Assembly: GCF_018459925.1 (NCBI RefSeq) | Contig: NZ_CP075371.1 | Span: forward strand, 1,674,001 to 1,738,000 | Source: Nocardioides aquaticus | GTDB lineage: Bacteria > Actinomycetota > Actinomycetes > Propionibacteriales > Nocardioidaceae | Length of the DNA stretch: 64,000 bases | Direction: 5' to 3' | In this document: positions 45,599 through 64,000 of the stretch, one piece after another | Layout of the letters: each line of letters opens with the position of its first letter | Position numbering within the stretch: the first letter of the stretch is position 1 | Notes under the pieces: model-generated | The model's database searches: none | What the model was told of the DNA's origin: nothing | The model's input: the letters and a program-made list of their open reading frames with translations, nothing else | Program-made: the position numbers and the translations under genes

Positions 45599-46228
45599 AT
45601 GCTGTCCCCACGACGAATCGCAGTCACGACCGTCTCGATCGCCCTGCTCGCCACCACGGCCGCCTGCGGGGGAGGTGACGACGAGCCTGAGGCCACACCC
45701 ACCTCGTCGAGCGCCCCCACCACGCAGAGCCCGTCGCCGACGCAACCTAGTCCCACGGAGACCGCCTGGCAGGACCAGTACGCCCCCGCCCAGCTCGACG
45801 CCTACGAAGCGGCGCTCTCGCGGTACGAGGAGTACGAGACCCGCAGCGAACCCATCTGGGCCGCAGGAGAGGCCACCGATCGCGCCGAGGCGCTCTTGAA
45901 GCAGTACTTCCCCTCGCCGCTCTGGCAGGGCCGGCTCCGAATGCTGTCCAGCTACGAGCAGGTAGACGTGCAGGTGGAGGGATTGGCCGACGTCTACTGG
46001 TCCCGAGCCAAGTCCATCAGCGACACCGGCCTGTCTGTTGTGATCAACCAGTGCGTGGACTACACGACCGTGAAGGTGACGCAACGCCGCGAGGCGGCGC
46101 AGCCCGTGGAGTGGCAGCAGAAACCGAACCTTCGGACAATCACGCTCGAGAAGCCCGAAGGAAGTGACTGGCTGATCTACGGCGTGGTCGACGCTTCGAG
46201 CGGGAAGCCCCGGCCATGCGCGCCTTGA
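45599..46228 (+). CDS. Predicted lipoprotein at the head of the pilus cluster
   Basis: A 209-residue protein with a signal peptide (RRIAVTTVSIALLATTAAC) and a lipobox-like TAAC; cysteine 23 would be lipidated. A Thr/Ser/Pro-rich linker follows, then a folded domain (YEAALSRYEEYETRSEPIWA, DVQVEGLADVYWSRAKSISD) of the kind found in small actinobacterial lipoproteins. The ATG is preceded by GGGAGGTCG. Its end overlaps the next gene by 13 bases. Confidence 0.8.
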   Translation: MLSPRRIAVTTVSIALLATTAACGGGDDEPEATPTSSSAPTTQSPSPTQPSPTETAWQDQYAPAQLDAYEAALSRYEEYETRSEPIWAAGEATDRAEALLKQYFPSPLWQGRLRMLSSYEQVDVQVEGLADVYWSRAKSISDTGLSVVINQCVDYTTVKVTQRREAAQPVEWQQKPNLRTITLEKPEGSDWLIYGVVDASSGKPRPCAP

Positions 46229-47157
46229 AGTCGGTTGTCGCAGCGGCCGCCCTACTCGCAGGCGTTCTGGTGGTGTCGGCAGCGACTGGAACGCCTGCCG
46301 CCGCAGATCCACCGGCATGCCCGCCGGGGGAGTCGCCGTCGGAGATCCCGGGTGGCTGGATCTGCATTCCTGTCTCTGATCCCGGCGAGCCCGGTGGAGA
46401 GGACCCAGGTGACGCCGGCGGGAACGGCGGCACCCTGCCGGCTGGCTGCTTCGAAGGTGATGAGGAGGTGTCCTGCAACGATGAGTACGGGGGCACCTGG
46501 GACGCCGGCCGCGGGTGCTATGCCTTTCAGGTTCAGCCCCAGCCGCCGGCTGGGTCGCCGCTGTGGGAGGGCCACGATCCATCCGAGGGCAGCGTGTGGA
46601 GTTGCGACTACACGGTGACGATCCCGGAGACCTCGTGGTTCGTGCCCACCGGTGAGGATCCGTTGGTCGACCCCGCGGTCTTGGCGCAGGAGGCGCTGGG
46701 GCGGATGAAGCTCGAGAACGCGAGCGCGCAGATCGCGCCAGGTCCAGGCTTCCACACCTATGTGCACATCGAGAACTGGCTTTGGTTGCCCGAGGCGCAG
46801 TGGCACGACCTGACCGAAACGGTCACCGCTGGACCCGCGTCGGTCACGGTCACCGCCGAGCCCATCCGGGTGGACTGGGACATGGGCACCGAGACGACCA
46901 GTTGCTACGACGTCGGACGGGTCTGGATCAAGGGCATGACAGACGCGGCGAAGACGACTTGCTCGTACGCCTACGAGTGGATCGAGAACCCCGCCGGCGA
47001 CACCCACAGTGTCTCCGCCCAGCTGGTCTACGGCGTCACCTGGGACTGCGACGGAGCCTGCCTGACTCCCAACGGCGACCTCGGCGAGATCGACGCCCCG
47101 GCCGGCGACCCGACAACGATCGAGGTGCGACAGCGCCAGACAGTGGTGATCCAATGA
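46216..47157 (+). CDS. Secreted protein of unknown family
   Basis: A 313-residue protein with a cleavable signal (ALKSVVAAAALLAGVLVV... ending PAAADPP). Mature part begins Cys/Pro-rich (ACPPGESPSEIPGGWICIPV), is glycine-rich to about 80, then has scattered cysteine pairs and beta-type sequence (GFHTYVHIENWLWLPEAQWH). Such proteins are seen in actinobacterial Tad/conjugation-type loci, but I do not recognise a named family. Four-base overlap with the next ATG. Confidence 0.75.
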   Translation: MRALKSVVAAAALLAGVLVVSAATGTPAAADPPACPPGESPSEIPGGWICIPVSDPGEPGGEDPGDAGGNGGTLPAGCFEGDEEVSCNDEYGGTWDAGRGCYAFQVQPQPPAGSPLWEGHDPSEGSVWSCDYTVTIPETSWFVPTGEDPLVDPAVLAQEALGRMKLENASAQIAPGPGFHTYVHIENWLWLPEAQWHDLTETVTAGPASVTVTAEPIRVDWDMGTETTSCYDVGRVWIKGMTDAAKTTCSYAYEWIENPAGDTHSVSAQLVYGVTWDCDGACLTPNGDLGEIDAPAGDPTTIEVRQRQTVVIQ

Positions 47158-47869
47158 CGATGACCTCCGGACGGAGTAACACCCAGCGGTCCGGCTCCCG
47201 CGGCTCGCGAGACCAGGGCCTGGACCTGCGCTCGACCCTGGGCGGAGTGCGTCAGCGTGCTCCGCGCCGTCTGGGCCAGTGGGCGGGTGCGGTGCTGTTC
47301 GTGGTCATCGTGGTGATCGGGCTGCTGGCCTTGTTCCAGTCTCAGAGCGACCGGGTCGAGGTCCTCGCCGTCACTGACGCCGTACCGGCCGGCCAGGTGA
47401 TCGAGAAGGGCGACGTGCGACCGGTTGAGGTGGCAGGCGTAGCCGGTGCGATTGCGGCCACCGACATCGACTCGGTGGTGGGCAAGCGAGCCGCGGCCGG
47501 CCTCGTCGAGGGCCAGGTGCTCACCGACGCCGCGCTGACCGACGAGCTGGTCCCCGGCGAGGACGAGCGGGTGGTGGCCATCGCGTTGCCGAACGGCCGC
47601 GTTCCGGGCGGCCTGTCAGCTGGGGACGTCGTGTCGGTGATCGTGGTGCCCGTCGAGGGTGCCGAGGGCTCTAGCGAGCAGCTCCAGGCGCCGACGGTGC
47701 TCTCCCAGGCCGCGTCCGTGCAGTCGGTGGGGGACACCCCGAAGGCGGACGGGTGGTCACGGTCCTTGTCGACGCCGGCGAGGCTGAGCAGGTCGCCGCC
47801 TACAGCGCGGCTGGTCAGGTCACGATCATCCAGGCGCCGCTCACCAACCGCGATGCAGCGGGGGAGTGA
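47154..47869 (+). CDS. cpaB: CpaB/SAF-domain pilus assembly protein, frameshifted
   Basis: Membrane-anchored SAF protein: N-terminal cytoplasmic tail, one TM (WAGAVLFVVIVVIGLLALFQ) and a SAF domain (VLAVTDAVPAGQVIEKGDVR, RAAAGLVEGQVLTDAALTDE, DERVVAIALPNGRVPGGLSA). At 47752-47754 a run of three G breaks the frame; a fourth G would continue VVTVLVDAGEAEQVAAYSAA, GQVTIIQAPLTNRD to a stop at 47869. Without that, translation would read into the next gene. CpaB/RcpC proteins link the Tad secretin or envelope to the pilus machine. Confidence 0.8.
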
Positions 47870-47877
47870 GGCCTTCA

Positions 47878-49055
47878 TGCTGTTCGCCATCTGCGCCGAC
47901 CGCGGTGCTCCCGGGTCGACTACCACCGCGCTTGCACTGGCGGCTGCCCGGGGCCTGCCGGCTGTTGTCGTCGAGGCCGACCCCTACGGCGGCGACCTCG
48001 CGCTGCGGATCCGCCACGACGGCAACCCGCTGCCCACGACCCCGACAGTCCTCAGCGTCAGTGCCGGCTGGTCTGTCCAGGGGTCGACATTGGGACCGCG
48101 AACCTCGCCTGGAGGGCCCTCAGAACGACGTCATCGCGACCTGTGGCGGGACGGCTCGCACGGACTGTCGGAGCTCGTGCGGGTTGTTCCCGGGTTTATG
48201 GCCGCCGAGCGCGGTAGATCGCTGGCTTGGCCCGTGCTGGCCAGTGCGCTCGAATCGCAGTCGGTGCCGGTCTTCGCCGACCTCGGCCGCATCCACACCG
48301 GTTCGCCCTCGCTGGCAGTGGCGGCCGCCGCCGACGCGCTGATTCCGGTGTGCCGCAGCGACATGGCCTCGGTCCAGCACATGGTCGACCGCCTCGAGCT
48401 CCTCGTGCCGGCGATCGTCGACCGGAACGGCCGACCCCCGGTCGTGCTGCCGGTGGTCATCGCGCCCCGCCAACACGGCGGCACCATCGCCAACAGCGTC
48501 GCGGAGATCCTCGGCGAGACCGCCGTGGGGCCCACCCTGCGCGGGGTCAGCTGGCTGGCCTGGGACCCGGCCGCGGTCGCACACCTCGAGAACGGCGCCG
48601 ACCCCTGGACCAAGCCCCTGCGCAAGTCGCCGCTGATGAAGTCGGCCCGCAAGGTGATGTGGATGGTCGGCCTGGCCACCGGGCTCTCGCACGCCGACCC
48701 TTCCGCCAAGAGCGGCGACAAGCTCGGTGCGCGTCGTCGACGTCGGGACGAGCCGGGGACTCAGGAGCAGCCGCAGTCCTGGGCGTCGCCCTACGTACCC
48801 CACGACGCGCCAGGTTCCGCCGACGGACCTCGCGGGGAGGGTCAGCAGGACGCACCCACCCAGGCGGCTACTCGGCCTCTCGGTGCCCCGCCTGCCTTGA
48901 TACCGAACCACGGCGCTGAGACGCCGCCCGCCCCCACTGGCAGCGAGCAGAACGGCCACCTGAACGGCCAGGCCGACAGCCGGGCCGACCAGGCCGAAAG
49001 CCAGGACGCCGGGGTTGGCCGCTGGGAGACCGCAGCACGACAGGAGCGCCGCTGA
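47878..49055 (+). CDS. CpaE/MinD-like protein with altered P-loop
   Basis: A 392-residue protein; ATG 47878 follows the corrected end of cpaB. The N-terminus LFAICADRGAPGSTTTALAL has the shape of a MinD/CpaE Walker A but without the signature lysine, and VEADPYGGDLALRI matches the following Asp motif. The C-terminal 100 residues are Pro/Gln/Gly-rich and probably disordered. Position between cpaB and tadA argues for a CpaE-type localiser of the pilus. Overlaps tadA (TGATG). Confidence 0.75.
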
Positions 49056-50416
49056 TGGAGCGATCCGAAGCACGCTCAGATGTACTCAGCCTCGACCACG
49101 CGCTGCTGCGCCGGCTCCAGGTCCGCGTCGGTGACCTGCTCGAGGCGGACCTCTCCGAGCGCCGGCGCCGCCATCAGCCGCCGCTGTCGGAGGAGGACAC
49201 CGACGCCTTCAAGGCCGAGCTGGCCCACCGCGTCGTTGACGAGCACGCCCGATCCCAGGCCGAGGGCGGGCTGGGCCAGATGTCGTGGGAGGACACCCAG
49301 GACCTGGTCAACGCCCTGAAGAACCGGCTCTACGGCGCCGGGTCGCTGGAAGCGCTGCTGCGTGACGAGCGGATCGAGGAGATCGACGTTAACGGCTGGC
49401 AGAACGTCTTCGTCGACTACACCAACGGTGTGAGGGCCAAGGTCGCGCCGGTGTTCGCCTCCAACGAGGAGCTGATCGAGACCATCCAGACCCTCGCTGC
49501 CCACGAGGGCCTCTCGGGCCGCAGCTTCGACTCGGCCAACCCGCACGTGAACTTCCGGCTCGGCTCGGCGCGCGTCCAGGCCGTGATGGCCGTCAGTACC
49601 GCCCCGGTGATCGCGATCCGCCTGCACCACCGGCACATGCGATACATGCTCAAAGACCTGGTGGCCAACGGCACCATCGACCAGCCGCTGGCCGACTTCT
49701 TCGCCGCGGCTGTCCGCGCGAAGAAGAACCTCATGATCGGTGGCGAGACGAGCGCCGGGAAGACCGTGCTGCTGCGGGCCCTGGCCGCTGAGATAGGTCC
49801 CGAGGAGCGGCTGATCACCATCGAGCGGGCCCTGGAGCTGGGCCTGGAGGACGACGTCGAGGCCCACCCGGACACCGTGGTGATGGAAGAGCGTCTGGCC
49901 AACGCCGAGGGTGAAGGTGCTGTGCCCATGCGAGAGCTGGTCACCATCTCCAAGCGCATGCGGCCCGACCGGGTCATCGTCGGGGAGGTCTTGGGCGATG
50001 AGGCCCTGGTGATGCTCAACGCGATGATGCAGGGCAACGACGGCAGCCTGTCCACGATTCATGCCAACAGCTCCGAGGGCATCGTGGAGAACATCATCGC
50101 CTACGCGGTGCAGGCACCCGAGCGGCTCCCGCGTGCCGCGACGGTGAGCATGATCGCCAGCGGTCTGGACTTCCTCGTCTTCGCTCGCCGCTACCGCGGT
50201 GAGGGCGCCCAGCGCCGGGTCGTGCACTCGGTGCGCGAGATCGTCGGCTACGACGAGCACGGGTTGAAGACCAACGAGATCTTCCGGCCCGGGCCCGATG
50301 GGATGGCGGTGCGCGACGAACCGGTAGCGATCAACTGCATCGAGGCGCTGCGCGAGGTCGGCTACCGCGACCCAGGCCAATGGGACGACCTCGGCAGCTC
50401 GAGAGGGTGGGTCTGA
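49055..50416 (+). CDS. tadA: CpaF/TadA secretion ATPase
   Basis: A 453-residue type II/IV secretion ATPase: N-terminal domain with LYGAGSLEALLRDERIEEID, Walker A GGETSAGKT (229-237), Asp box LITIERALELGLEDD, Walker B region RPDRVIVGEVLGDEAL and His box GSLSTIHANSSEGIVENII. Powers pilus extension or transfer. Starts at an ATG overlapping the previous stop. Confidence 0.93.
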   Translation: MERSEARSDVLSLDHALLRRLQVRVGDLLEADLSERRRRHQPPLSEEDTDAFKAELAHRVVDEHARSQAEGGLGQMSWEDTQDLVNALKNRLYGAGSLEALLRDERIEEIDVNGWQNVFVDYTNGVRAKVAPVFASNEELIETIQTLAAHEGLSGRSFDSANPHVNFRLGSARVQAVMAVSTAPVIAIRLHHRHMRYMLKDLVANGTIDQPLADFFAAAVRAKKNLMIGGETSAGKTVLLRALAAEIGPEERLITIERALELGLEDDVEAHPDTVVMEERLANAEGEGAVPMRELVTISKRMRPDRVIVGEVLGDEALVMLNAMMQGNDGSLSTIHANSSEGIVENIIAYAVQAPERLPRAATVSMIASGLDFLVFARRYRGEGAQRRVVHSVREIVGYDEHGLKTNEIFRPGPDGMAVRDEPVAINCIEALREVGYRDPGQWDDLGSSRGWV

Positions 50417-50417
50417 C

Positions 50418-51338
50418 ATGGTCGCGCTTCTTGGGATCGCGCTGGCCCTCGGCCTGCTCGGCATCGCACGCCTGATCCGAGGCCTGCCGTTGCTTCCCTC
50501 CCTCCGAACCGGGGAGCGGGTCCGCAACAGCTCCAGCCGGCTGTCGGCCCACGAGCAGCGGACGCTGATAGCCGGTGGGGCGGTCGGCCTCGTGGTCGTG
50601 CTGGTGAGCCGCAACCTCGTGTTCGGCGTCATCGCCGGCGCCGCGGTGGTGCTGTGGCCGATGGTGGTGGGCGGCGGGAGGGCCGAACGTGCCGCCTTGG
50701 CCAAGCTGGAGGCGCTGGCCCAGTGGACCGAGGCGCTGCGCGACCTGGCGCAGAAGGGCTCCGGCCTGGAGTCGGTCATCCCCCGCACGGTCGACACCGC
50801 CTCCGACGTCCTGATCGTCCCGCTGCGGCTGATGTCGCGGCGGCTTAGTGTCAAGGTCCCGCTGCCCGAGGCGCTGAGTTTGTTCGCCGACGAGGTCGAC
50901 GACGCCAGCGCCGACACCGTCGTCGCAGCACTCGCGCTCTCGGCCCGCCAACGCCGCGGCCGGCTGTCCGATGTGCTCGGCACCCTGTCGGAGGCACTGC
51001 GCGACGAGCTCGAGCAGCGCACCAAGATCATGCGCGAGCGCAACATGATCCGCCGCGAGGCCGCCCAGGTCGCCGCCCTGACCGCGGTGCTGGTCATCGG
51101 CGCCAGCCTCTTCGCACCGCCCAGCCTTCCCAACGAGGCCGACAGCGCCGCCCAGGTTCTGCCGCTGCTCCTCGCGGTCGCGTTCGTGCTCGTGTTTAGC
51201 CGGGTCCGCAAGCTCGCAGAACCGGAGATCGAGCCGCGGTTCTTGTCCTCTGCGACCGAGGTCCTCGAGGCCGCGACCTACCGGCCCAAGACACGGCCGG
51301 GTGCAGCTCGTAAGCCGCTCGAGGAGGGGACCCGATGA
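50418..51338 (+). CDS. tadB: TadB-like inner-membrane platform protein
   Basis: A 306-residue type II secretion F-domain protein: TM segments near 1-20 and 50-85, the cytoplasmic F domain (ALAQWTEALRDLAQKGSGLE, LFADEVDDASADTVVAALAL, RDELEQRTKIMRERNMIRRE) and C-terminal TMs. Follows tadA by one base and overlaps tadC by 4. Confidence 0.88.
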   Translation: MVALLGIALALGLLGIARLIRGLPLLPSLRTGERVRNSSSRLSAHEQRTLIAGGAVGLVVVLVSRNLVFGVIAGAAVVLWPMVVGGGRAERAALAKLEALAQWTEALRDLAQKGSGLESVIPRTVDTASDVLIVPLRLMSRRLSVKVPLPEALSLFADEVDDASADTVVAALALSARQRRGRLSDVLGTLSEALRDELEQRTKIMRERNMIRREAAQVAALTAVLVIGASLFAPPSLPNEADSAAQVLPLLLAVAFVLVFSRVRKLAEPEIEPRFLSSATEVLEAATYRPKTRPGAARKPLEEGTR

Positions 51339-52258
51339 ACCACGTAACGACGGGCGTGATGGTCCTCGGCGCGCTGCTCGCGCTCGGGTTGCTGCAGCTG
51401 CGCTGGCTGCTGTTTCCACCGGCCCCCGACCTGGTCGCCGAGATCGACCACTGGCGCCGCGGCCGCGAGCGCGCCACCGAACGAGCCGACTCACCCCAGC
51501 AGCTCTCACCCATTGGTCGCATCGCCCGCTGGGTCGTCGACCTCCTGCGGGCGCACCGGCCCGACTTCCTCGACAACCTCGCACCCGACCTGGCCATCAC
51601 TCAGCGCGACCTGCAGTCCTGGCTCACCCGCGTCACCGGTCTGGCTCTCGGCTTCGGTCTGGCCCCCATTGTGCTGGTCTTGGCCCGCCGTCTGCGAGGC
51701 GACGAGGTCAGCGTGCAGTGGGCGCCGATCGTCGGCGTTCTCCTGGCCGTGGCGGCGGTGGTGCTCTCGGTCAGGGATCTGCGCAACCAGGCAGCCAGTG
51801 CCCGTGAGGAGTACATCCGAGCGCTCTCGATCTACCTCGACCTCGTCGCCATGAGCATGGAAGCCGGCCAAGGACACGCCCAGGCGTTGCCCGCGGCCTC
51901 ACAGATCGGCACCCGACGCGTCTTCGACGAGATCCGCACTGCGATCGACCTGGCACCTTCGCGCGGCATCACCGCCTGGGAGGCGCTCGGCCAGCTGGGG
52001 GAGCGGTACCGCATCGTCGAGCTCATCAGCCTGCGGTCCAGCATCGAGCTGGCCCAAGACGACGGCGCCCGGGTCAAGGCGTCACTGATCGCCCGAGCCA
52101 AGACGATGCGCTCCTCAAGGCTGGCGGGCGCGGTCGAGCGGGCCAACAAGGCCACCGAGTCGATGCGCCAGCTGACCCTCGTCGCCGCAATGCTCGCCTC
52201 GGTCTACATCGCGGCGCCAAAAATCCTCGCGCTCCGATCCGCCGCGGGAGCCCCATGA
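51335..52258 (+). CDS. tadC: TadC-like inner-membrane platform protein
   Basis: A 307-residue F-domain protein with N-terminal TM (VMVLGALLALGLLQLRWLL), a central TM pair (about 95-150), and the F domain (YIRALSIYLDLVAMSMEAGQ, GHAQALPAASQIG, ELISLRSSIELAQDDGARVK). Partner of TadB; overlapping start ATGA. Confidence 0.87.
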   Translation: MNHVTTGVMVLGALLALGLLQLRWLLFPPAPDLVAEIDHWRRGRERATERADSPQQLSPIGRIARWVVDLLRAHRPDFLDNLAPDLAITQRDLQSWLTRVTGLALGFGLAPIVLVLARRLRGDEVSVQWAPIVGVLLAVAAVVLSVRDLRNQAASAREEYIRALSIYLDLVAMSMEAGQGHAQALPAASQIGTRRVFDEIRTAIDLAPSRGITAWEALGQLGERYRIVELISLRSSIELAQDDGARVKASLIARAKTMRSSRLAGAVERANKATESMRQLTLVAAMLASVYIAAPKILALRSAAGAP

Positions 52259-52347
52259 ACCCATCCTTGATCCCAGCCGAACTCGGCACCCGCCCCGTAG
52301 CGGTCATCGGCCCACATGCACCACACGATCCTGCAAGAGGAGTCTAG

Positions 52348-52572
52348 ATGTTCAAGCTGATCCGTGTTCTCAACGTCCTGATCCTGACCCTGATGCTGCG
52401 CATCCGGGGGTCCGCCACGGCGTTCATCTATCAGCCGCGTAAGCGCGACGAGCGCGGTGCGAGCGCGGTCGAGTGGCTGGTCATCCTCGGCGCTGGCATC
52501 GCGATCGCCTACTTCGCCGGTGACTCCGTCATGGCGTTCGCCAAGAATCTCGTCGGCCAGCTCGGCCAGTAG
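52348..52572 (+). CDS. flp: Flp-type pilin
   Basis: A 74-residue protein with a class III prepilin signature: long cytoplasmic leader, cleavage site ERG/ASAVE (Gly37, Glu at +5) and hydrophobic helix WLVILGAGIAIAYFAG. After processing the pilin would be only 37 residues. Ribosome site AGAGGAG lies upstream. Subunit of the fibre built by TadA/B/C. No prepilin peptidase gene is visible in the window. Confidence 0.85.
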   Translation: MFKLIRVLNVLILTLMLRIRGSATAFIYQPRKRDERGASAVEWLVILGAGIAIAYFAGDSVMAFAKNLVGQLGQ

Positions 52573-52660
52573 ACCCGCTCGCCCACCGCCCCACCCAACC
52601 GGACACACAGGCCGGCCCACGCCGGTAGCCCCGTCCCCCTACCAAGGAGGTGCGACCCGC

Positions 52661-53083
52661 ATGAACACCAGTCAGCTGCAGCGCGGCCGCCGCACCCTCC
52701 GGCCGCACCGGGGCGAGCGAGACGGGCGGGGCGCCGCTGGTGTGGAGTTCCTGATCGTGGCGGCGGTGCTGATCTTCCTTTTCACCACGCTGGTCCAGTA
52801 CGGCATCGGGTTCCACGCCCAGCGTGTCGCTGAGGCCGCGGCACGCGAGGGCGCGGTCGCCACAGCTCGCCACGACGGAACCGAGGGCGCCGGCAGCAGC
52901 ACCGCCAAGGAGTACGTCAACGACGATGGCAAGCCGGCGGTCACCGGCTCGAGCGTCTCGGTCAGCCGCTCGGCGACCGAGGCCCGAGTCACCGTCACGG
53001 TCGACGTCGTCACCCTGGCGCCGTGGCTGGGGGGCTCGATCACCTCCACCGCGACGGCACCCGTGGAGAGGTTCGTCGAATGA
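52661..53083 (+). CDS. tadE: TadE-like pseudopilin
   Basis: A 140-residue protein with prepilin-like signal GRG/AAGVE (Gly24, Glu at +5) and TM FLIVAAVLIFLFTTLVQYG, then RVAEAAAREGAVATAR, the TadE pattern, and a beta-rich exterior part. Strong AAGGAGG upstream. Overlaps the next gene by 4 bases. Confidence 0.85.
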   Translation: MNTSQLQRGRRTLRPHRGERDGRGAAGVEFLIVAAVLIFLFTTLVQYGIGFHAQRVAEAAAREGAVATARHDGTEGAGSSTAKEYVNDDGKPAVTGSSVSVSRSATEARVTVTVDVVTLAPWLGGSITSTATAPVERFVE

Positions 53084-54167: not shown

Positions 54168-54236
54168 GACGCCGCTTAGAGCACCGAAAGCGGCGACGGT
54201 GCGCAACGCGACGCCGACCCGAGGAGGAGGATCACC

Positions 54237-57200: not shown

Positions 57201-57605
57201 GGCGCGCACAGCGACCTCCTGCAGGCACTAGAGCTGGTCACCGGCCGGCCCTTCGACCATCTGCGCCAAGGGGGCTGGAGCTGGCTATACCAGGGCGACC
57301 CGCACGATCAATACGCCGCCCACGCCATCGCCGACGTCGCCTTCACCGTCGTCACGCACTGCCTGCGCGGAGGGGACCTGGTCCGCGCCCGGGCGGCCAC
57401 CGAAATCGCCATCCTGGCGGTCCCGGACGAGCAGATCGTGCAGCTGTGCCAAGTGGCACTGACCGAGGCCGAGGGCAACAACACCGAAGCGATGCGCATC
57501 CTGCTCGGGGACGTCTGCAACCGCGCCGAGGACGGTGAGGCACCCCTCGACCTCCCCGAGCGCACCCAGGAGATCATCCGAAACCACCAGTGGATAGCCA
57601 GTTGA
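54237..57605 (+). CDS. Large membrane protein with LysM domains and C-terminal winged-helix/BTAD
   Basis: A 1122-residue protein. Three TMs in the first 125 residues, two LysM-like repeats outside (DRDTTVWKLAEVYLDDGSRW at about 160; YTVNPNDTLWDIAEAKLDDP at about 237), a long acidic Gln/Asp/Gly linker, a fourth TM near 388-408 followed by basic residues, then a large cytoplasmic part ending with a winged helix (LALRPRNGATRDELAEAVGW) and a BTAD-like helical domain (LLQALELVTGRPFDHLRQGG). It could link the cell wall to a cytoplasmic regulatory or scaffolding domain. GGAGGAGG ribosome site. Similar proteins occur in actinobacterial pilus/conjugation loci. Confidence 0.85.
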   Translation: MLNRLIRGVGALIVLVALVVGAPLVLLAWVGNPWPAGGWSEVQLLTNRSILGALAVVGWLAWAQMAACILIELAGAVGGKAPQRVRFASGGQQQFARVLVTSVIALGIGGGIGASIVAPSLAATTAATPQPETAPTTSHTVERRDVGQVAPGPTVTIDRDTTVWKLAEVYLDDGSRWRELLDLNRGEALSDGTVLTQATQTVPTGSTLRLSADAHVNDAPTSQRDQKDHRDRQDGIYTVNPNDTLWDIAEAKLDDPARYMELYEASTGTLQPGGDHLVDPDHIEVGWKITIPGGGTAHDGGDRDHGNRGGQDEHGDRGDDGSGEQTPETPDVVPEDQDDQGDQGQQGGEADATEEQNPSAETAAGDQSVDEAVDEAGDESVLDAGWVLPGLTGGGVLLAGALYLGLQRRRRAQFRARRPGRAVAAPPAELAPTGMTISAAGGPVAATVAFMDVALRRLAEHARTHQAEMPPLAAVQLREDLVTLHLSGAVDLPAPWEGSPDRLHWSCSTAAVVEDLGPDHGWAEAPYPMLVTIGVDDRRDAAAVPPVGDSDDRSEHQGGLWLLNCEELGTLEVVGDPIRAGDFARHLAVQLAVNPWSQQVSVDCVGIAQEAEGLGDRIRYYDAGWEGDRAASEVLAEAVSMVDRAIRHDTDVSTGRTGGLDDDVWPARMLVVTAEGNTDSGALHELRRLIATHVGRTGTAIVVTATSPAARASGGDQNASSGTGQTVTTVVEVTSTGRVLLGDQGLDLAAVELTREEAHGCALLYAHSEILDDVAVPVDEEATEGWQALVDQTGALRRELTLARSTPVEDLDEPATSLLAGTDEEYVTAAPVVPEDLEVIAPKVPESVLAKVKAEDPALDADLADWFDPHCPRPKLTLLGPVAVRTHGRPLAKYKALGTEIVAYLALRPRNGATRDELAEAVGWDDPARVRKYIDLVRHWLGEDPETHEHYLPHANKSPAAKSRGVNVYQVTGGLLIDWDLFRRLRARGAHSDLLQALELVTGRPFDHLRQGGWSWLYQGDPHDQYAAHAIADVAFTVVTHCLRGGDLVRARAATEIAILAVPDEQIVQLCQVALTEAEGNNTEAMRILLGDVCNRAEDGEAPLDLPERTQEIIRNHQWIAS

Positions 57606-57623
57606 GGGCGAGGGGGCGGCGTG

Positions 57624-57908
57624 ATGTTCGACGACGGGCCGCTGCGGGATTGCCTCCACGACCACGAGCGGGCAATCCTCGACCAGCACGAAGACATGGA
57701 CGGCACGCCGTTTCCTTCGCTCGCCCACGCGAGCGACGCCGTCGAGCGCATCCTGACCCAGCTCGGCATCGACTGGCTCTACAGCTCCGGGCTGGAGCGC
57801 AAGACCCGCTGGGGTGGCGATGAGAGCAACCGGGTGGTGACCCAGGTAGTGGGTGTCGCAGAAGGGGTCACTCAAGAGGCAGTCCCGAGGCGCTGGCCCG
57901 CACAGTGA
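57624..57908 (+). CDS. Small hypothetical protein
   Basis: A 94-residue protein (ATG 57624, or GTG 57621) starting FDDGPLRDCLHDHERAILDQ, with LAHASDAVERILTQLGIDWL later. No family recognised. It follows the LysM/BTAD gene by 18 bases and ends in a hairpin. The C-terminal third is less convincing. Confidence 0.5.
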   Translation: MFDDGPLRDCLHDHERAILDQHEDMDGTPFPSLAHASDAVERILTQLGIDWLYSSGLERKTRWGGDESNRVVTQVVGVAEGVTQEAVPRRWPAQ

Positions 57909-57923
57909 CGCCTCAGGCGTCAC
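57905..57923. terminator. Hairpin between convergent genes
   Basis: GTGACGCCT and AGGCGTCAC form perfect 9-bp arms around one base. It overlaps the stop of the small hypothetical gene and lies before the end of the convergent PIN gene. No T-tract on the plus strand, so terminator function is tentative. Confidence 0.45.
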
Positions 57924-57943
57924 CGTCCGGCGACAAGACGGGC

Positions 57944-58360
57944 TCACACGCCGACGACGTCGACGAGCTCCTCGAGGCCGGCGAAGTCGACCGGGTTGCG
58001 GGTGTACAGCCGGGCGCCGTGCGCGTGGGCAGTGGCCGCGATCAGGAGGTCCATCACACGGCCCCGGGGGCGTCGCCCGGCGTCGACGACGGCCGCCGAC
58101 AGACGGCCGTAGCTGGCGGCGACCGCGTCATCGACCGGCAGGGCGTCGAAGCGCTGCTGGAGCACGCTGAGCCGACGCAGCCGCTCCGCGCGCACCTCGG
58201 TGGTCTTGGCAACCAGGACGCCGAAGTGCAGCTCTGCGAGTGTCACCGCACTGATGGCCAGAACGCCGGGAATCGGAGATGCGCCCTCGTCGATGACCAC
58301 GCTGGTGTCCAAAATCGCCCGCTCAGCCGGCGCCTCGATCGGGCCCGGGTTCGAGGTCAC
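57944..58360 (-). CDS. vapC: PIN-domain toxin, VapC type
   Basis: About 138 residues; GTG 58360 is chosen because it overlaps the antitoxin stop (GTGA), though ATG 58372 is possible. The PIN acidic residues are all there: AILDTSVVIDEG, SAVTLAELHFGVL, GRVMDLLIAATAHAHGARLY and TRNPVDFAGL. Expected RNase whose activity is blocked by the upstream antitoxin. Likely helps keep the element in the cell. Confidence 0.92.
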   Translation of the reverse strand: MTSNPGPIEAPAERAILDTSVVIDEGASPIPGVLAISAVTLAELHFGVLVAKTTEVRAERLRRLSVLQQRFDALPVDDAVAASYGRLSAAVVDAGRRPRGRVMDLLIAATAHAHGARLYTRNPVDFAGLEELVDVVGV

Positions 58361-58605
58361 CGACCGGCCCAAGGGTCACACAGCTCGTCGTCGACGAGCG
58401 CTCGGTCCTGCGCCCAGTCTGGGTCGGCGGGACCGCGAAACAGATCCTCGACCTCCCGCCAGGTCCTCCAGCGGGTGGGCCGCACGGGCACCAAGACAGC
58501 GCTGGGACGTCCAGAGACGGAGATCGTGATCTCCTCGCCTGCCTCGACGCGACGGACGAGTTCGGACGCGTCCTGCCTCAGCTCACGCAAGCCGACGGTC
58601 GTCAT
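58357..58605 (-). CDS. vapB: Antitoxin of the Phd/YefM type (VapB partner)
   Basis: An 82-residue protein: TTVGLRELRQDASELVRRVE, then EEITISVSGRPSAVLVPV is the Phd/YefM DNA-binding fold, followed by a toxin-binding tail (WREVEDLFRGPADPDWAQDR). Upstream of and overlapping the toxin gene; autoregulation is expected of the family. Confidence 0.92.
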   Translation of the reverse strand: MTTVGLRELRQDASELVRRVEAGEEITISVSGRPSAVLVPVRPTRWRTWREVEDLFRGPADPDWAQDRALVDDELCDPWAGR

Positions 58606-58859
58606 GCGCCCATCTTAATAGCACGTGTGCTACCCCGGCCAGCCTGGAGCAGCCTTGTGCGGCACACCGGGCGAGACGAAGCCCGCGCAACCCCTTCCCA
58701 GAAGTTCCTGCAACTTTCGGGGGGACGCCTTCTGACCTGCGCAAACGCTCGGCCTCCCGCCGTGTCCCCCCACCGATCTGATGTGGGGGGGACACCGAGA
58801 GGGACACCCGAGAGCCACCTTCCTGCCGTGCAGCGACACGACGGAAGGGAGGCCCCGGC
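58606..58859. other. Divergent intergenic region with a recurring motif
   Basis: Separates the antitoxin and the next plus-strand gene. GCCTTCTGACCTGCGCAAAC at 58728-58747 is nearly the same as one arm plus loop of the hairpin at 37.8 kb. Near the right end, GGGAGG is the ribosome site of the next gene. Confidence 0.5.
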
Positions 58860-59810
58860 ATGAGTGTGGGCGACCAGCTTGGACTGGAGGAGAACAGCGA
58901 GCTGCTGGACAAGGCGCGACGGATGTGGCCCCGCTGGGTGGCCGCCAACAGCCGCCTGGGAGTCGTCGAGAGATTCGACGACCTGCGGCCCTGGCTTCCC
59001 ACGGTGACCCGCGAGGAAGCCGACGAGGTCCTCCTCGCCTTGGCGATGCTCGCCGCCCCCGACGGCGGTGACGACATCGCGGCCGCGGCGGCGCTGGCCA
59101 AGTGCCTGCTCCCCGGCGCGTGCCGGCTGGCCGGCTGGCTGAGCTCGCTGCCGACCAAGGAGGTCTTCCGCGATAGCCAGCCGATCCAGGCCGGAGCCTG
59201 GTGGGCCGTCGAGCGGATCGACGAGCTGGTGGCCTCGCAGCTGTGGATCGAGGTCCGCTCGTTCCCGTGGCGCCGACTGACCAAGGTCGCGGCCAACATC
59301 ATCGTCAACACCAAGGTCGGGGTCCTGCGGGAGGTCGGCGACTTCTTCTACGTCACACGCGCCGACCGGACCTGGGCGCACACCGACCTGGTCGAGTCCT
59401 TCTCCTTCGGCGACTTGCCGAGCGGCGGCAGCGAGTGGGCCGACGGCGAGCGGCCTCCCAGCAAGCGCCGTGCCAGCGCCCTGGGCCACCAACCCCAGGT
59501 ACTCGCGGCCCCCGACCCGGCCGAGCCGGACACGTCGCCGGCCGAGGAGCTGCTCGAGCTGCTCACCTGGGCGTGCGAGCAGGACGTGATCAGCGAGTCC
59601 GACCGGCGCCTGCTGCTGTGCCTGGTGCACGAGGCCGACCGGGTCCAGACCCGCAACCTCGGCCGGGGCTGCGGCGGGCTGATCGCCAACGAGCTCTCGA
59701 TGCGGGTCGCCCCCCAGCTCGGGGTCTCCCAAGCCACCGTGCGACGCAACGCCTCACGCAGCGTCCGCGCTCTGGCGCAGGCGGCCGGGAGGTTCGGCCA
59801 TGACGAATGA
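58860..59810 (+). CDS. Hypothetical protein with C-terminal helix-turn-helix
   Basis: A 316-residue protein. The middle part WIEVRSFPWRRLTKVAANII, VNTKVGVLREVGD and the C-terminal RVAPQLGVSQATVRRNASRS look like a DNA-binding regulator with an HTH; the ends resemble sigma-factor-like ICE proteins but I cannot assign a family. ATG preceded by GGGAGG. First of a plus-strand run leading into the transfer genes. Confidence 0.65.
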   Translation: MSVGDQLGLEENSELLDKARRMWPRWVAANSRLGVVERFDDLRPWLPTVTREEADEVLLALAMLAAPDGGDDIAAAAALAKCLLPGACRLAGWLSSLPTKEVFRDSQPIQAGAWWAVERIDELVASQLWIEVRSFPWRRLTKVAANIIVNTKVGVLREVGDFFYVTRADRTWAHTDLVESFSFGDLPSGGSEWADGERPPSKRRASALGHQPQVLAAPDPAEPDTSPAEELLELLTWACEQDVISESDRRLLLCLVHEADRVQTRNLGRGCGGLIANELSMRVAPQLGVSQATVRRNASRSVRALAQAAGRFGHDE

Positions 59811-59894: not shown

Positions 59895-60203
59895 ATGGCA
59901 AGTACCCAGCGCACCCAGCACACCATCGGGATGGACGCAGCGCAGCTGCAGCGCTCCGCGCAGGAGATCTCACAGCTCTTCGACATCGCCGGCCGTGAGG
60001 GGAAGATCATCGCCGGCCTCACCGGCGGCATGGACCAACTACGCGCGGTCCACGCGGTCAAGCACGCACTGGCGACCCTCACCCCGGCCGAGGTCCGCGC
60101 CGCCATGGCTTATCGACATGCCTACCGGCGCACGATGCAGCCCGGTCCGGCCAACCAGTCAGTCGGCCAGCCAAGCGGGCGGCCCGCGGCAAAGCTGTCA
60201 TGA
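59895..60203 (+). CDS. Small helical hypothetical protein
   Basis: A 102-residue protein from ATG 59895, chosen over ATG 59871 because GGGAGGTG lies 10 bases upstream of it. Mainly helical (AAQLQRSAQEISQLFDIAGR, LRAVHAVKHALATLTPAEVR). No family recognised. Its stop overlaps the following ATG (ATGA). Confidence 0.6.
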   Translation: MASTQRTQHTIGMDAAQLQRSAQEISQLFDIAGREGKIIAGLTGGMDQLRAVHAVKHALATLTPAEVRAAMAYRHAYRRTMQPGPANQSVGQPSGRPAAKLS

Positions 60204-61225
60204 GCAGCGGCACCCTGAGCGCCGGCACCGGCTCGCCCGCGCGTCCCTTCGCGCTGGAGGAGGTGCAGGCTGCCGTGCGCGCCCTTCGGGCCGGGGAGTT
60301 CCGAGACGCCCGCCCCACCACCCGACGGACCGGTCCGGGTGCACACCCGGAAGAGCCGCGCACAGCGGGCCGAGCCGCGGCACGGACCGGAGGCGGCGAC
60401 CGCCACCGCGCCGCCGACGCAGCCGACTGGACCCCCCAGGCGGGGGAGCGAGTCCTTGCCGTGATCGGGACCTCCGGCTCGAGCGGAGCCAGCACCGTGG
60501 CCCTCGCCGTCGCGCTCAGCGCCGAGCTACCCGCTCGCGTCATCGAGTGCTGCTCAGCCAGCGCGTCCGGCCTGGCCGCCGCCACCACCGCCGAGCTCGG
60601 CCTGCACCCCGCCGGATGGCGACTGGGCCGGCGCGAGCAGGTCCTCATCGAACGCGTCTGCGAGGTCCTCGCCGGCGTCGACGAAGTCCCCACCCCCACA
60701 CCAGCAGAGCACACCACCCAGCTGACCGTGCTGGACGTCGGCTGGGAGGTCGGTCAGCTGACGACCACCGACTCCTGGGTCAGCGACGCCGTCGCCAGCG
60801 CCGACCAGGTCCTCCTGGTCAGCACCTCCACGGTCCCCGGCATGCGCCGACTCGAAGGCGCCCTCGAGCTCCTTGTCAACCACGCCGGGGTACACATCAC
60901 TGACCGGACCTGGGTGGCCGTGGTCGGCCCCCGGCGCAAGAAGTGGACCCGGGGCGTCGAGCACGCCGGCGGACCGCATGCCCGGCGTGCGCTGAACAGC
61001 GGACGTCTGGTCGAGATCCCTGAGGACCGTGGCCTGTCGATCCACGGCCTGGACTCCCGCCCGGTGCCGCAGGCCCTGCTCGCCGCAGTCGCCCACGCCC
61101 ACGCCGTCGAACAGGACGCCGACCACGACGCCAACCGCGACGGCGACGACGAAGCGGCGGCTGACGAGCTCGACCTCTTCACCGATCACGACCTCACCGA
61201 CCAGCCGACCGACCAGCCCGGCTGA
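60200..61225 (+). CDS. ParA/MinD-like protein with altered P-loop
   Basis: A 341-residue protein. After a 75-residue disordered N-terminus, VLAVIGTSGSSGASTVALAV takes the place of the Walker A of MinD/ParA proteins but lacks the lysine; RVIECCSASASGL, VLDVGWEVGQL and ADQVLLVSTSTVPGMRRLEG continue the fold. The C-terminal tail is strongly acidic. Probably a localisation or coupling ATPase-like factor of the transfer system, or a non-hydrolysing relative. Confidence 0.7.
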   Translation: MSSGTLSAGTGSPARPFALEEVQAAVRALRAGEFRDARPTTRRTGPGAHPEEPRTAGRAAARTGGGDRHRAADAADWTPQAGERVLAVIGTSGSSGASTVALAVALSAELPARVIECCSASASGLAAATTAELGLHPAGWRLGRREQVLIERVCEVLAGVDEVPTPTPAEHTTQLTVLDVGWEVGQLTTTDSWVSDAVASADQVLLVSTSTVPGMRRLEGALELLVNHAGVHITDRTWVAVVGPRRKKWTRGVEHAGGPHARRALNSGRLVEIPEDRGLSIHGLDSRPVPQALLAAVAHAHAVEQDADHDANRDGDDEAAADELDLFTDHDLTDQPTDQPG

Positions 61226-61294
61226 CACCGCAACACGAGTCGCAACACCACCAGTCCGCAACACCAGTTCGTATCACTCGAAAGGAACCGACCG

Positions 61295-61588
61295 GTGAAC
61301 CTGATGATCCGCACCACCGAGATGGCCGTCAAGGTGTGCCCGAAGGCACCGCCCGGCGCCGAGGGGCCGACCAACGAGATCACCGGCTACGTGCTCTGGG
61401 GGGTGATCATCCTCTTCGGTCTCGCCATCATCATCGGGATCGGCGCCGTGATCGCCGGCCGGATGTTCGCCCTGCCCCACGCCTCGAAGGTCGGCGTGAT
61501 CTCGCTGGTCGTCGTCTTCGGCTGCGCGATCGCCTACCTGGTCCTGCCCGGGATGCTCAACGGCATCCTCGGCAACGGCTGCATCTGA
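61295..61588 (+). CDS. Small two-TM membrane protein, VirB2/TrbC-like
   Basis: A 97-residue protein from GTG 61295 (AAAGGA upstream) with two hydrophobic segments (YVLWGVIILFGLAIIIGIGA and VGVISLVVVFGCAIAYLVLP) around a short basic loop. Size, topology and place before other transfer-type genes fit a VirB2/TrbC-type or actinobacterial ICE membrane protein. Two cysteines (CPKAP, NGCI) could pair outside. Confidence 0.65.
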   Translation: MNLMIRTTEMAVKVCPKAPPGAEGPTNEITGYVLWGVIILFGLAIIIGIGAVIAGRMFALPHASKVGVISLVVVFGCAIAYLVLPGMLNGILGNGCI

Positions 61589-61601
61589 TCGGAGTTCGCC
61601 G

Positions 61602-62570
61602 GTGGGTGCCATGCAGTCCAAGAGCACGGGTCGTTCCGGTCAGGAGACCTCGGGGGTCCGCGAGTGGAGTCGCGGGCGCCTGATCACGATCCTGACCGGA
61701 GCGGTCGTCGTCGCCCTCGCATTGCTCGTCGGGCTGGGGTACGCCATCTACCTGGCGGTGTCCGGGCTCAACGGCGACCCCTCGGCCGCCGGCGGCGTAG
61801 CCACCGGCGAGACCGAACGCTCCACCGTCGCCCGGGGCGCCAGCCACCGCGACGAGATCGCCGCCGAACCGATGCTGAGCGTCCCCTCGAGCGCAGCGTT
61901 CCCCGACGACCCCAACGACCCCGACGGAAGTGGGGACGCAGGCGCCGGTCAGGACAGCATCAAGATCCCGACCGGCACCGGCATCAACGGCCCTGGCCTG
62001 GTCATGACGGGCTTCCCCCACACCCCCGAGGGCGCGATTGGGCAACTCGCGCAGATCGACACCGCGGTGCTGCAGTCGATGAGCCTGCAGACCGCTCAAG
62101 AGGTCTACGCGAGCTGGGCGTTGCCCGGCGGCGTCAGGGCCGACGACTGGTGGATCACCTCGAGCGTCGCGGCCTTCCTGAGCAGCAGCGAGATGGGCAG
62201 CGTCAAGAGCGCCACAGCGTCGGTAGCCGTGGAACCGGCGGCAGCTCTGGTGAAGGGCACAGACGGACCCGACTGGGCCACGGTCTGCGTCCTGATCAAG
62301 GTCACCGCGACCTACCGTTCCGAGGGCCATGCCGCGTTCGGCCACTGCGAGCGCATGCAGTGGGTCGGGGGTCGCTGGATGCTCGCGCCAGGTGCGCCCC
62401 CGGCGCCCGCACCGGCCACATGGCCCGGCACCGAGCTGGCCGTCGAGGCGGGCTGGCGCACCTGGACTACGGACCCGTCGGCGGGCGTGCCCGAGGACGA
62501 GCAGGCGGTCGAGCAGGGCGAGGACCGCAGCCAGGACCACAGCGACGAGCAAGGAGGAGCACACTCATGA
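61602..62570 (+). CDS. Single-TM conjugation-type protein
   Basis: A 322-residue protein with a short cytoplasmic N-terminus, one TM (RLITILTGAVVVALALLVGL) and a large exterior domain (GFPHTPEGAIGQLAQIDTAV, WALPGGVRADDWWITSSVAA) with two cysteines. This layout is common in transfer clusters of actinobacterial ICEs, where it resembles VirB8/TcpC-like scaffolds; that assignment is inference. GTG 61602 start, ATG 61611 possible. Confidence 0.65.
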   Translation: MGAMQSKSTGRSGQETSGVREWSRGRLITILTGAVVVALALLVGLGYAIYLAVSGLNGDPSAAGGVATGETERSTVARGASHRDEIAAEPMLSVPSSAAFPDDPNDPDGSGDAGAGQDSIKIPTGTGINGPGLVMTGFPHTPEGAIGQLAQIDTAVLQSMSLQTAQEVYASWALPGGVRADDWWITSSVAAFLSSSEMGSVKSATASVAVEPAAALVKGTDGPDWATVCVLIKVTATYRSEGHAAFGHCERMQWVGGRWMLAPGAPPAPAPATWPGTELAVEAGWRTWTTDPSAGVPEDEQAVEQGEDRSQDHSDEQGGAHS

Positions 62571-63445
62571 GCAGCCGCAGCACATCCACCACTCCCACCC
62601 CGTCCGGCAACCTGGCCCGCATCGCCGTCCTGGTGGTCATCGCCGTGGTAGCCGCCACCGCGGTGTGGCTCGGAACCCGCGGAGATGACGGGGCCGCAGA
62701 TCGCGACGGCGGAACCGGAATCGCTGCCGGCACCTCGGGTGAGTCGGCAGGGGACTCATCGGGCCGCTCCACAGGTGGCTCGGGAAGCGAGCAGCTGGCA
62801 CCCGAGAGCGCCGCGGCCGCGCCGGTCGGCGGCATCACCCTCCCGACCGGGTCGACCCAGACCGACGGCTACGCGGCCGGCTTCCCCTACACCGACCTCG
62901 GGGCGGTGGCGCTCCAGGTGGAGCTGGCCAGGGCCCAGGTCGGCTTCGACTACGACCAGGCCGCCACGGTCGCCCAGCTGTACTCCGACCCCGCCGACCA
63001 GGCCGTCTTCGAGCAGCGCTCCCACGACGCCGTGGCGCTACGGCGCCAGCAGGCGGGAGTGCCGGCCGAGGGCCAGGTGCCCGCACCCGCCTCGTACGCG
63101 GTCACGCCGGTCGCCTACACGCTCGAGGAGCTCGACACCGACTACTACGTGGTCAACCTGCTGAGCTACGTCACGCTGACCGACGTCGACGGCGAGGCCC
63201 GCGACGGCCTCTACGCAGGCACCCAGCTGGTGCGCTGGATGGCCGACCCCGACGCCGACTCCGACAACAGCAGCGGCGGTGACTGGAAGGTCGTCGAGGG
63301 CAGCACCGCCGACCTCGAGAACCTCATCGCACAGGGACAGCCCCAGGCCGTCGCGCCCGAGACCAACGATTTCGAGGACGCCAACTGGATCATGATCGAC
63401 CCCACCAGCGGCAACTCCTCAGCCGAGGCCGGTGAGTCCTCGTGA
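62567..63445 (+). CDS. Second single-TM conjugation-type protein
   Basis: A 292-residue protein, ATG 62567 after AAGGAGG and overlapping the preceding stop. One TM (IAVLVVIAVVAATAVWLG), a Ser/Gly-rich linker, then an exterior domain (GFPYTDLGAVALQVELARAQ, YTLEELDTDYYVVNLLSYVT) that parallels the previous protein's (both have a GFPxT stretch), so the two may be related partners. Family not firmly identified. Confidence 0.65.
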   Translation: MSSRSTSTTPTPSGNLARIAVLVVIAVVAATAVWLGTRGDDGAADRDGGTGIAAGTSGESAGDSSGRSTGGSGSEQLAPESAAAAPVGGITLPTGSTQTDGYAAGFPYTDLGAVALQVELARAQVGFDYDQAATVAQLYSDPADQAVFEQRSHDAVALRRQQAGVPAEGQVPAPASYAVTPVAYTLEELDTDYYVVNLLSYVTLTDVDGEARDGLYAGTQLVRWMADPDADSDNSSGGDWKVVEGSTADLENLIAQGQPQAVAPETNDFEDANWIMIDPTSGNSSAEAGESS

Positions 63446-64000
63446 CCAGCGACCTCCTCCCGCGCCTGCGCTGCCCCCGCCGGGCTGGCGCCCTGGCCCT
63501 GTTCACCGGCCTTCTGGTGGGCCTGCTGAACGGGCTTATTGGCCCCGCCGCAGCGATCCAGCCGGCCACGTCCACGCCGGCCGCCGGCAAAGCCACCATC
63601 AGCTCCATCAGCACAGCGGCCGCACTCGACACCCGGCTCGCCGCCGCCGCCCCCGAACTCAAGCAGGGATGCCCAGGCCCCGACGCGCTGTGCGACCTCG
63701 GCGGCGACGTCCTGGACTGCGCCGCCGGCCCCGTCGACTGCGTGGAAGACGCCGGCGGAGCCGTCGCCGGCGACGTCAAGGACGGTGTCTTCAACGGCGT
63801 CGAGGGGGTGGCCGGCGCGGCCGGCGGGATCGCCGAGGGCGGCTGCGGCGTCCTCGACGCGGTCTGCGACGTAGCCGGCGGCGGACTGCCCGGAACCCCG
63901 GGAATCCTGGGCATCCCGGGACTGCCCGACGTCGGCGACATCTTCGGCGGCGGGTTCCCCGGCCTGGGCGACATCCCTAACCCCATGGCCGAGCTCGGCG
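63442..64000 (+). CDS. Secreted/membrane transfer-type protein, cut by window end
   Basis: GTG 63442 overlaps the previous stop; the frame is open to the last base (186 residues seen). A signal-like TM (GALALFTGLLVGLLNGLIGP) with AAAI cleavage region is followed by a Cys/Gly-rich exterior (GCPGPDALCDLGGDVLDCAA, GPVDCVEDAGGAVAGDVKDG) and a Pro/Gly segment. In actinobacterial ICEs such N-termini head long TrbL/VirB6-like proteins, which would fit here, but the diagnostic part lies outside. Confidence 0.65.
   Translation, partial: MTSDLLPRLRCPRRAGALALFTGLLVGLLNGLIGPAAAIQPATSTPAAGKATISSISTAAALDTRLAAAAPELKQGCPGPDALCDLGGDVLDCAAGPVDCVEDAGGAVAGDVKDGVFNGVEGVAGAAGGIAEGGCGVLDAVCDVAGGGLPGTPGILGIPGLPDVGDIFGGGFPGLGDIPNPMAELG

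Follow-up and report, generated by a model that had tools for sequence, protein, structure and literature searches.

Introduction

When a Tad/Flp pilus cluster stands beside the start of a conjugation-type secretion apparatus, do the two form one transfer machine? The question is raised by a 64,000-nucleotide stretch of the Nocardioides aquaticus chromosome (assembly GCF_018459925.1, contig NZ_CP075371.1), called here the window, which covers bases 1,674,001-1,738,000 of a genome made of a single contig of 4,580,814 bases; window positions equal the genome coordinate minus 1,674,000, and genome coordinates are used past the window end. The initial annotation of this DNA had proposed a mobile element in which a Tad core and the start of a type IV secretion system (T4SS) block run in the same direction, with the pilus possibly serving attachment or mating-pair formation. 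Taken as a whole, that interpretation is partly supported. A Tad/Flp cluster (45,599-57,605, plus strand) does precede a T4SS block on the same strand, as Pfam and NCBIfam matches and gene order confirm, and we judge it likely from sequence comparison that the window carries a chimeric, probably relaxase-less copy belonging to a family of actinobacterial conjugative plasmids and integrative and conjugative elements (ICEs) with a dedicated Tad mating pilus. In gene content and linkage, the family combines three modules, joining a Tad pilus with a monoderm T4SS of minimal make-up and a relaxase of the MobF (TrwC) type.

Linkage of the Tad and T4SS Modules

The source genome contains three such loci, A (1,613-1,646 kb), B (the window copy) and C (3,085-3,124 kb), and in all three the gene of the T4SS protein SCO6880 lies 14.2-18.1 kb downstream of TadA on the same strand. 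The closest named relatives of the window SCO6880 gene come mainly from Nocardioides. We surveyed 50 of 80 named loci, mostly on longer contigs, in 49 genomes by means of whole-genome searches, counting as linked any TadA that lies within 55 kb upstream of SCO6880 and on its strand, and leaving out four SCO6880 matches below the family cut-off and TrwC matches below 199 bits. At least 63 of 96 SCO6880 genes in these genomes were linked to TadA, at a median distance of 16.6 kb, when random placement linked a mean of 2.18 of 96 and a maximum of 8 in 1000 runs; 3 others had TadA within 60 kb in a different arrangement, and 30 had none within 60 kb among the matches listed. Linkage involved TadA matches above 300 bits (63 of 89) and none of the 61 at or below 300 bits, which represent other Tad systems or related ATPases, again among the matches listed. 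At least 41 of the 50 chosen loci were linked, and where at least 30 kb of contig lay upstream the figure was 34 of 36, with 30 of them within 30 kb. Two loci are exceptions: in L070, TadA stands on the opposite strand at a distance of 24.8 kb, and the L040 stretch has no TrbL, M23 or coupling-protein match. The survey of Actinobacteria suggested by the initial annotation found Tad clusters adjoining T4SS genes of this kind in several genera of actinomycetes.

The relaxase takes part in the same linkage. TrwC was found within 90 kb in at least 52 of the 63 linked loci (42 downstream and 10 elsewhere; 11 had none among the matches listed), and in 52 of 52, among the matches listed, it was on the opposite strand. 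Nine of the ten TrwC genes that are not downstream make up a second layout, in which TrwC occupies a shorter, opposite-strand open frame of 1,161-1,258 codons upstream of Tad; genomes with this second layout are G004, G007, G010, G011, G015, G016, G019 and G023.

A class-wide sample of 197 genomes, in which 7-8 candidates per genome were scored first and three second fragments of split matches were dropped, held 116 SCO6880 loci in 81 genomes. Those with TadA within 60 kb had it upstream in seven cases (three of them in the source genome) and downstream in five, and in 12 of 12 on the same strand. Linkage as a property of all SCO6880 T4SSs is rejected by this sample (12 of 116), and Tad coupling is therefore a feature of some lineages of SCO6880 T4SS, not of all. 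A different layout, with TadA downstream of SCO6880 on the same strand, was seen in G126, G198, G215 and G233, which belong to one genus, and in G060. At G182:C1:541844 there is an element-type TadA in a genome with no SCO6880 match at 1e-40, possibly a relic.

Exchange of the Tad Module and the Chimeric Window Copy

The two modules of the window copy have different closest relatives, and the change from one to the other falls within a single gene. The LysM protein (1,122 aa; 54,237-57,605, plus strand; LysM 4e-5) stands at the Tad/T4SS junction; the initial annotation had described it as a LysM/BTAD anchor, and of these two domains LysM was recovered and BTAD was not found by Pfam. Its breakpoint lies around residue 200, at about 54,690-54,990, where a part resembling plasmid pTC1 (residues 1-200) passes into a C-like part from residue 201 on. 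Identity over residues 1-100 is 65/100 to pTC1 versus 28/84 to C, and over residues 101-200 it is 43/87 versus 28/93, whereas from residue 201 C is closer than pTC1 in all blocks. The flanking proteins follow the same division: B and C share 55-91% identity in their T4SS proteins but merely 27-36% in TadA/B/C/E/F/G, and the Tad proteins of B share 47-76% with those of pTC1, while TadA of B is 90% identical to TadA from genome G013. Because the identity switches within LysM, with pTC1-like Tad proteins on one side and C-like T4SS proteins on the other, B is a chimera joined inside this gene.

Such exchange is not confined to the window. We compared 64 TadA/SCO6880 pairs, made up of 59 of the 63 linked loci (four without a fetched TadA were left out) and five others, and found three TadA and three SCO6880 clades in six combinations. 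Full agreement between the TadA and SCO6880 trees can be rejected, the Mantel r being 0.226, a value attained in 7 of 2000 permutations. Judged from these pairs and from the chimera, the Tad module has been swapped more than once with its position kept, and since it is exchanged and yet found in the same place, the element arguably needs a Tad module there.

Components of the Two Modules

The Tad cluster was scanned with Pfam, in which SAF, T2SSE, TadE, Tad and LysM scored above the curated cut-offs and T2SSF and Flp_Fap below them. All of its genes are on the plus strand. It opens with a lipoprotein-like gene (45,599-46,228; 58% identity to a pTC1 homologue annotated as a putative lipoprotein) and a secreted-looking protein (46,216-47,157; 58, 47 and 43% to its homologues in pTC1, pNOCA01 and locus A). 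Then come CpaB/RcpC (47,154-47,869, end approximate; SAF PF08666, 9e-6), a CpaE-like P-loop protein (47,877-49,055), the TadA/CpaF ATPase (49,055-50,416; T2SSE 2e-23, and TIGR03819 5e-61, below cut-off), TadB (50,418-51,338; T2SSF 2e-4; 70% to pTC1) and TadC (51,335-52,258; 67% to its pTC1 counterpart). The pilins follow: Flp (52,348-52,572; Flp_Fap 0.0019), a TadE-like pseudopilin (52,661-53,083; TadE 2e-8), a TadF-like pseudopilin (53,080-53,595; 76% to pTC1) and a TadG-like protein (53,592-54,167; Tad PF13400, 2e-5). Pfam gave no match for TadC, the second pseudopilin or CpaE, whose assignment follows from gene order and from homology to annotated clusters, and for CpaE also from its sequence and from counterparts at the same position in those clusters. 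As read from the sequences, a prepilin-type ...RG|xxxx site is present in all four pilin-like proteins, Flp included. The cluster itself holds no prepilin peptidase of the TadV/CpaA type, and the sole Peptidase_A24 match in the genome lies at 2,829,208.

With TadA, TadB/TadC, Flp, pseudopilins bearing the prepilin-type site, CpaE and RcpC/CpaB, this is a Tad/Flp (type IVc) system. The core that the initial annotation called complete is there in its TadA, TadB, TadC, Flp, pseudopilin and CpaE-like members, and it is the cpaB gene that departs from that description, its reading frame shifting near 47,750. Outside the element, gene calls give two overlapping frames at 31,449-33,325 where one protein is likely; sequencing indels are therefore possible, and the same may hold for cpaB.

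Between the two modules lies an interval (window 57,621-58,860; L230:23600-40000 in pCHL; L116:1-13800 in pA-N39). The window interval carries a PIN toxin/Phd-YefM antitoxin pair on the minus strand (57,944-58,605; PF01850 5e-10, PF02604 5e-11), pCHL has resistance genes there, and pA-N39 has McrC and methylase genes, so that the interval is a cargo site. A toxin-antitoxin pair had been expected upstream of the Tad genes; the pair that we identified stands between Tad and T4SS, the region at 43-45.3 kb not having been searched for another.

The T4SS block, also on the plus strand, begins with a conserved 316-aa gene (58,860-59,810; 72% to C), and a small protein is encoded between it and the gene of a P-loop protein (60,200-61,225; 57% to C; 67 of the 84 loci searched have it). 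Next are a small protein with two transmembrane (TM) segments by eye, a possible VirB2-like subunit (61,295-61,588; 78% to C; 68 of 84 loci), a VirB8-like protein with one TM helix and an NTF2-like domain (61,602-62,570; AlphaFold pLDDT 84; 70 of 84 loci), a second single-TM protein (62,567-63,445; 29 of 84 loci) and, from 63,442 to the window end at 64,000, the start of a 699-aa TrbL/VirB6 protein that ends at genome 1,739,541 (PF04610 3e-9, above cut-off; 69% identity to C over 572 aa). The two-TM protein, the two single-TM proteins and the TrbL-like start were thus described correctly in substance from the beginning. Past the window, on the same strand, the block continues with SCO6880 (genome 1,739,656 on; NF042935 1e-135, above cut-off), a VirB4-type ATPase (1,741,212 on; NCBIfam VirB4 models below cut-off; PDB 4ag5, VirB4-like, 4e-9, a match spanning the Walker A region in the C-terminal half), an M23 peptidase protein (1,742,758 on; M23 above cut-off) and a VirD4-type coupling protein (1,746,880-1,748,394; TraG-D_C 5e-25, above cut-off), past which gene and domain calls place an M48 peptidase. 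Extension beyond 64 kb, which the initial annotation had proposed, therefore brought VirB4 and the coupling protein and, of the relaxases sought with them, no TrwC nearby, other families not having been searched.

Two of these assignments were taken further by structure prediction, given that sequence searches provided only weak hints. SCO6880 had no relative in the PDB by sequence-only search, and Pfam scans of alignment members gave weak PrgI matches in 2 of 23 and TraC_F_IV matches in 2 of 23; for the VirB8-like set they were uninformative. Among the PDB matches of the predicted SCO6880 structure, the top 14 were without exception VirB4-containing R388 T4SS entries (E 1.5e-6 to 1.3e-3), and on these fold matches SCO6880 together with the ATPase (genome 1,739,656-1,742,717) appears to be a VirB4 split over two genes, the N-terminus of SCO6880 being perhaps VirB3-like in view of the PrgI matches. 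In locus C, ARAGORN called an antisense tRNA-Asn within the SCO6880 gene (L014:17335-17410), which is probably a false match. An NTF2-like domain with a single TM helix is the fold class of VirB8/TcpC, and the window protein, modelled as one long N-terminal helix with an NTF2-like domain, is placed with VirB8 by this predicted fold alone: its best structural match had E 4e-3, none reached E 0.001, the 50 structure matches listed did not include VirB8 itself, and the PDB sequence search gave just two chance-like matches (E 0.66 and 0.74). The whole set is read as VirB2-like, VirB8-like, TrbL/VirB6, SCO6880 (the VirB3/VirB4 N-terminal part) plus ATPase, wall hydrolase and VirD4, and thus holds the VirB4, VirB6/TrbL, VirB8-like, wall-hydrolase and VirD4 coupling components of a monoderm conjugative T4SS.

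Relaxases, Integrases and Ends of the Chromosomal Copies

TrwC-family matches in the source genome are found only at 1,644,915, 3,085,399, 2,920,487 and 20,168. A and C each have a TrwC/MobF relaxase gene downstream on the opposite strand (1,640,820-1,646,144 in A and 3,085,378-3,091,281 in C), and so combine relaxase, coupling protein and VirB4, as a self-transmissible element does. No TrwC relaxase was found near B or within its island by a search that covered the TrwC/MobF family, and B is to this extent short of a self-transmissible element. The missing TrwC and the shifted cpaB together suggest that the window copy is defective or dependent.

On the left side of the island there are, as the initial annotation had it, integrases upstream of the Tad genes: two minus-strand tyrosine recombinases at 36,449-37,570 (NCBIfam XerD/XerC-type, 1e-27) and 38,409-39,584 (Xer-type, 4e-16), both below curated cut-offs. 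They are followed by backbone genes homologous to C-element genes at 3073413-3075252 (40,261-42,261, minus strand, two frames, 49-62% identity), the larger of which is interrupted, its frame being lost after about 355 residues with stops seen in the sequence, and by a plus-strand homologue of the C gene 3072328-3073197 (42,375-43,274; 57% identity). A search for exact direct repeats of at least 15 bases around B gave nothing convincing as attachment sites.

Immediately past glnA, locus C opens with a gene for an excisionase-like HTH protein and one for a tyrosine integrase. Over the 7-12 kb compared past glnA, the DNA shared between C and six relatives ends at the glnA stop, a single 130-base match in G200 being the exception. 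In a seventh relative, G235, that integrase likewise stands beside glnA, and farther along the same contig there is a Tad region that is 91% identical. The ICE features seen are thus integrases in B and C and the position of C beside glnA, as in G235; attachment repeats were sought and nothing convincing was found at the glnA end of C or at the tRNA-Met near A. Locus A looks partly damaged, with a transposase-like pair between its M23 and coupling-protein genes, partial M23 matches, and a LysM homologue that spans two frames. By eye, look-alike IS transposase gene pairs stand at genome 1,634,378-1,635,570 and 1,663,284-1,664,476, inside and after locus A, with equal protein lengths, similar starts and opposite orientation.

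Plasmids of the Family

The same arrangement is found on plasmids. In the closest six PLSDB records by SCO6880 (42.9-85.0% identity), namely pCHL, pA-N39, NZ_CP096277, pINDO-MA30-4, pTC1 and pNOCA01, TadA lies upstream of SCO6880 on the same strand in six of six; NZ_CP096277 was judged by coordinates only and taken as circular, and the genes of pINDO-MA30-4 are annotated in pieces. pCHL is by its annotation a resistance plasmid, and pTC1 and pNOCA01 are catabolic plasmids. Like the window, pNOCA01, pTC1, pCHL, pA-N39 and pINDO-MA30-4 carry Tad and then T4SS on one strand, but these five are circular plasmids whereas the window copy is chromosomal, and in pNOCA01, pTC1, pCHL and pINDO-MA30-4 there is a MobF by typing or annotation, against no TrwC relaxase in the window copy. 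No MobF is annotated in the parts of pA-N39 viewed, which do not cover 40,000-60,830. MOB-suite, via PLSDB, types pCHL, pA-N39 and pINDO-MA30-4 as non-mobilizable despite their annotated T4SS genes, and two of these, pCHL and pINDO-MA30-4, have MobF annotated; plasmid typing tools thus miss part of the Tad-T4SS family.

Plasmid occurrence, together with the C copy, which has an integrase beside it at glnA, indicates that the Tad-T4SS association is mobile. The initial annotation had named an absence of transfer genes past 64 kb, or a fixed chromosomal site in relatives without integrases, as findings that would speak against it, and what we see is transfer genes past 64 kb and a mobile association. 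The claim of a mobile element holds for the family and is not supported for the window copy, near which no TrwC and no attachment sites were found and in which cpaB is shifted.

Proposed Mechanism and Alternative Explanations

In the mechanism that we propose, Flp fibres would be built by TadA, TadB and TadC after maturation of Flp by the host prepilin peptidase, and their TadA-driven extension and retraction would contact a recipient and draw it to the donor. The LysM protein may anchor parts of both pilus and T4SS in the cell wall and so join the modules, the hydrolase would open the wall, and VirB4/VirD4 would pass the MobF-bound DNA through the T4SS. More broadly, and tentatively, at somewhat less than even confidence, we suggest that this is an unnamed hybrid machine widespread in Actinomycetes, in which Tad is the mating pilus of a split-VirB4 monoderm T4SS, linked to it by LysM, and in which swapping of the pilus cassette possibly alters the recipients contacted. 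We know of no well-described conjugative pilus belonging to monoderm T4SSs themselves, and how these systems find and hold a recipient is a question that an element combining pilus, T4SS and relaxase lets genetics address.

Several points weigh against a mating role for the pilus or against the window as an example of it. The roles of the pilus in transfer and of the LysM protein are ones we infer from gene content and linkage; the 49 surveyed genomes were reached via loci selected by similarity to the window SCO6880, and class-wide TadA was near in only 12 of 116 loci; the SCO6880 fold matches have query TM-scores of 0.33-0.39 and come from a low-confidence model (mean pLDDT 62); and in the window copy itself the TrwC relaxase is missing and cpaB is interrupted, sequence errors being possible. 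The Tad module could also be kept for adhesion alone. If it were colonisation or adhesion cargo carried on conjugative elements with no part in transfer, this would fit with Tad being the type IV filament most often found on plasmids (PMC6668835), with the tie between tad and host colonisation in Bifidobacterium (cited in PMC5696575), and with the other cargo that occupies the Tad-T4SS interval. Yet that cargo varies among the records viewed, while, among the TadA matches listed, 34 of the 36 loci with sufficient sequence have Tad, in a single orientation even after exchange, and the recombination in the window joins the modules within one gene, LysM; we consider the cargo explanation unlikely. 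A Tad pilus serving host DNA uptake beside an unrelated T4SS has its model in Micrococcus luteus, whose transformation needs the tad locus (PMC4322843; also PMC5696575), but it hardly explains the fixed order and orientation with T4SS and MobF or the occurrence on plasmids, and we regard it as very improbable.

For the window copy taken by itself, it is rather likely, and compatible with a conjugative family using a Tad mating pilus, that we are looking at a decaying relic which no longer transfers itself. The absence of TrwC near B, the interrupted cpaB, the interrupted backbone gene and the absence of attachment repeats all point that way; on the other side, TadA-C and the T4SS genes have open frames and are well conserved, the split gene at 31,449-33,325 outside the element means that sequencing indels may contribute, and the relaxase search was limited to TrwC.

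Comparison with Known Systems

The transfer system, which the initial annotation considered unusual for Gram-positive cells, is not without precedent: a linear plasmid of Cutibacterium acnes carries a tad locus together with conjugation genes, the functional link between which its authors call unclear (PMC5696575), and this plasmid is the nearest precedent for Tad with transfer genes. Like the present family, it is a Gram-positive actinobacterial plasmid with tad beside VirB4-like and other transfer genes; unlike it, its conjugation genes lie upstream of tad, TcpC- and FtsK-like proteins are named, and the word "relaxase" occurs 0 times in the text (PMC5696575). Cutibacterium was not among the 57 PLSDB records that match SCO6880 at 1e-10, the presence of the C. 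acnes plasmid in PLSDB not having been checked. The literature matches listed include no further paper on a Tad-T4SS link, most subscription papers lying outside the search. A 2025 T4SS review has 0 occurrences of "Tad". In a Rhodococcus genome paper of 2026, tadE and tadA of the chromosome are counted among the conjugal transfer genes, with no adjoining T4SS in the passage concerned (PMC12915292).

The Tad-T4SS association is real and conserved, and on its gene content it would be a form of pilus-assisted conjugation with Tad in the mating role. Type IV pili serve the conjugation of IncI and PAPI-1 elements (PMC12857230, PMC9045228). IncI R64/TP114 resemble our family in combining a T4SS with a pilus of the type IV filament superfamily, which there serves mating-pair stabilisation (PMC9045228, PMC12857230), but differ in their diderm hosts, Dot/Icm-like T4SS and type IV pilus with a PilV shufflon, against Tad (type IVc), a monoderm T4SS and MobF on the family side. 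Actinobacterial T4SS-type ICEs share with the family the integrase, VirB4, coupling protein and TrwC relaxase, and in the text of their 2011 survey by Ghinet "Tad" and "Flp" have 0 occurrences (PMC3218068). PAPI-1 of Pseudomonas likewise has VirB4 and VirD4 plus a type IV pilus; beyond these two it has no clear T4SS homologue, and the pilus is indispensable in every mating condition (PMC12857230), whereas the actinobacterial family brings a fuller T4SS to its Tad pilus.

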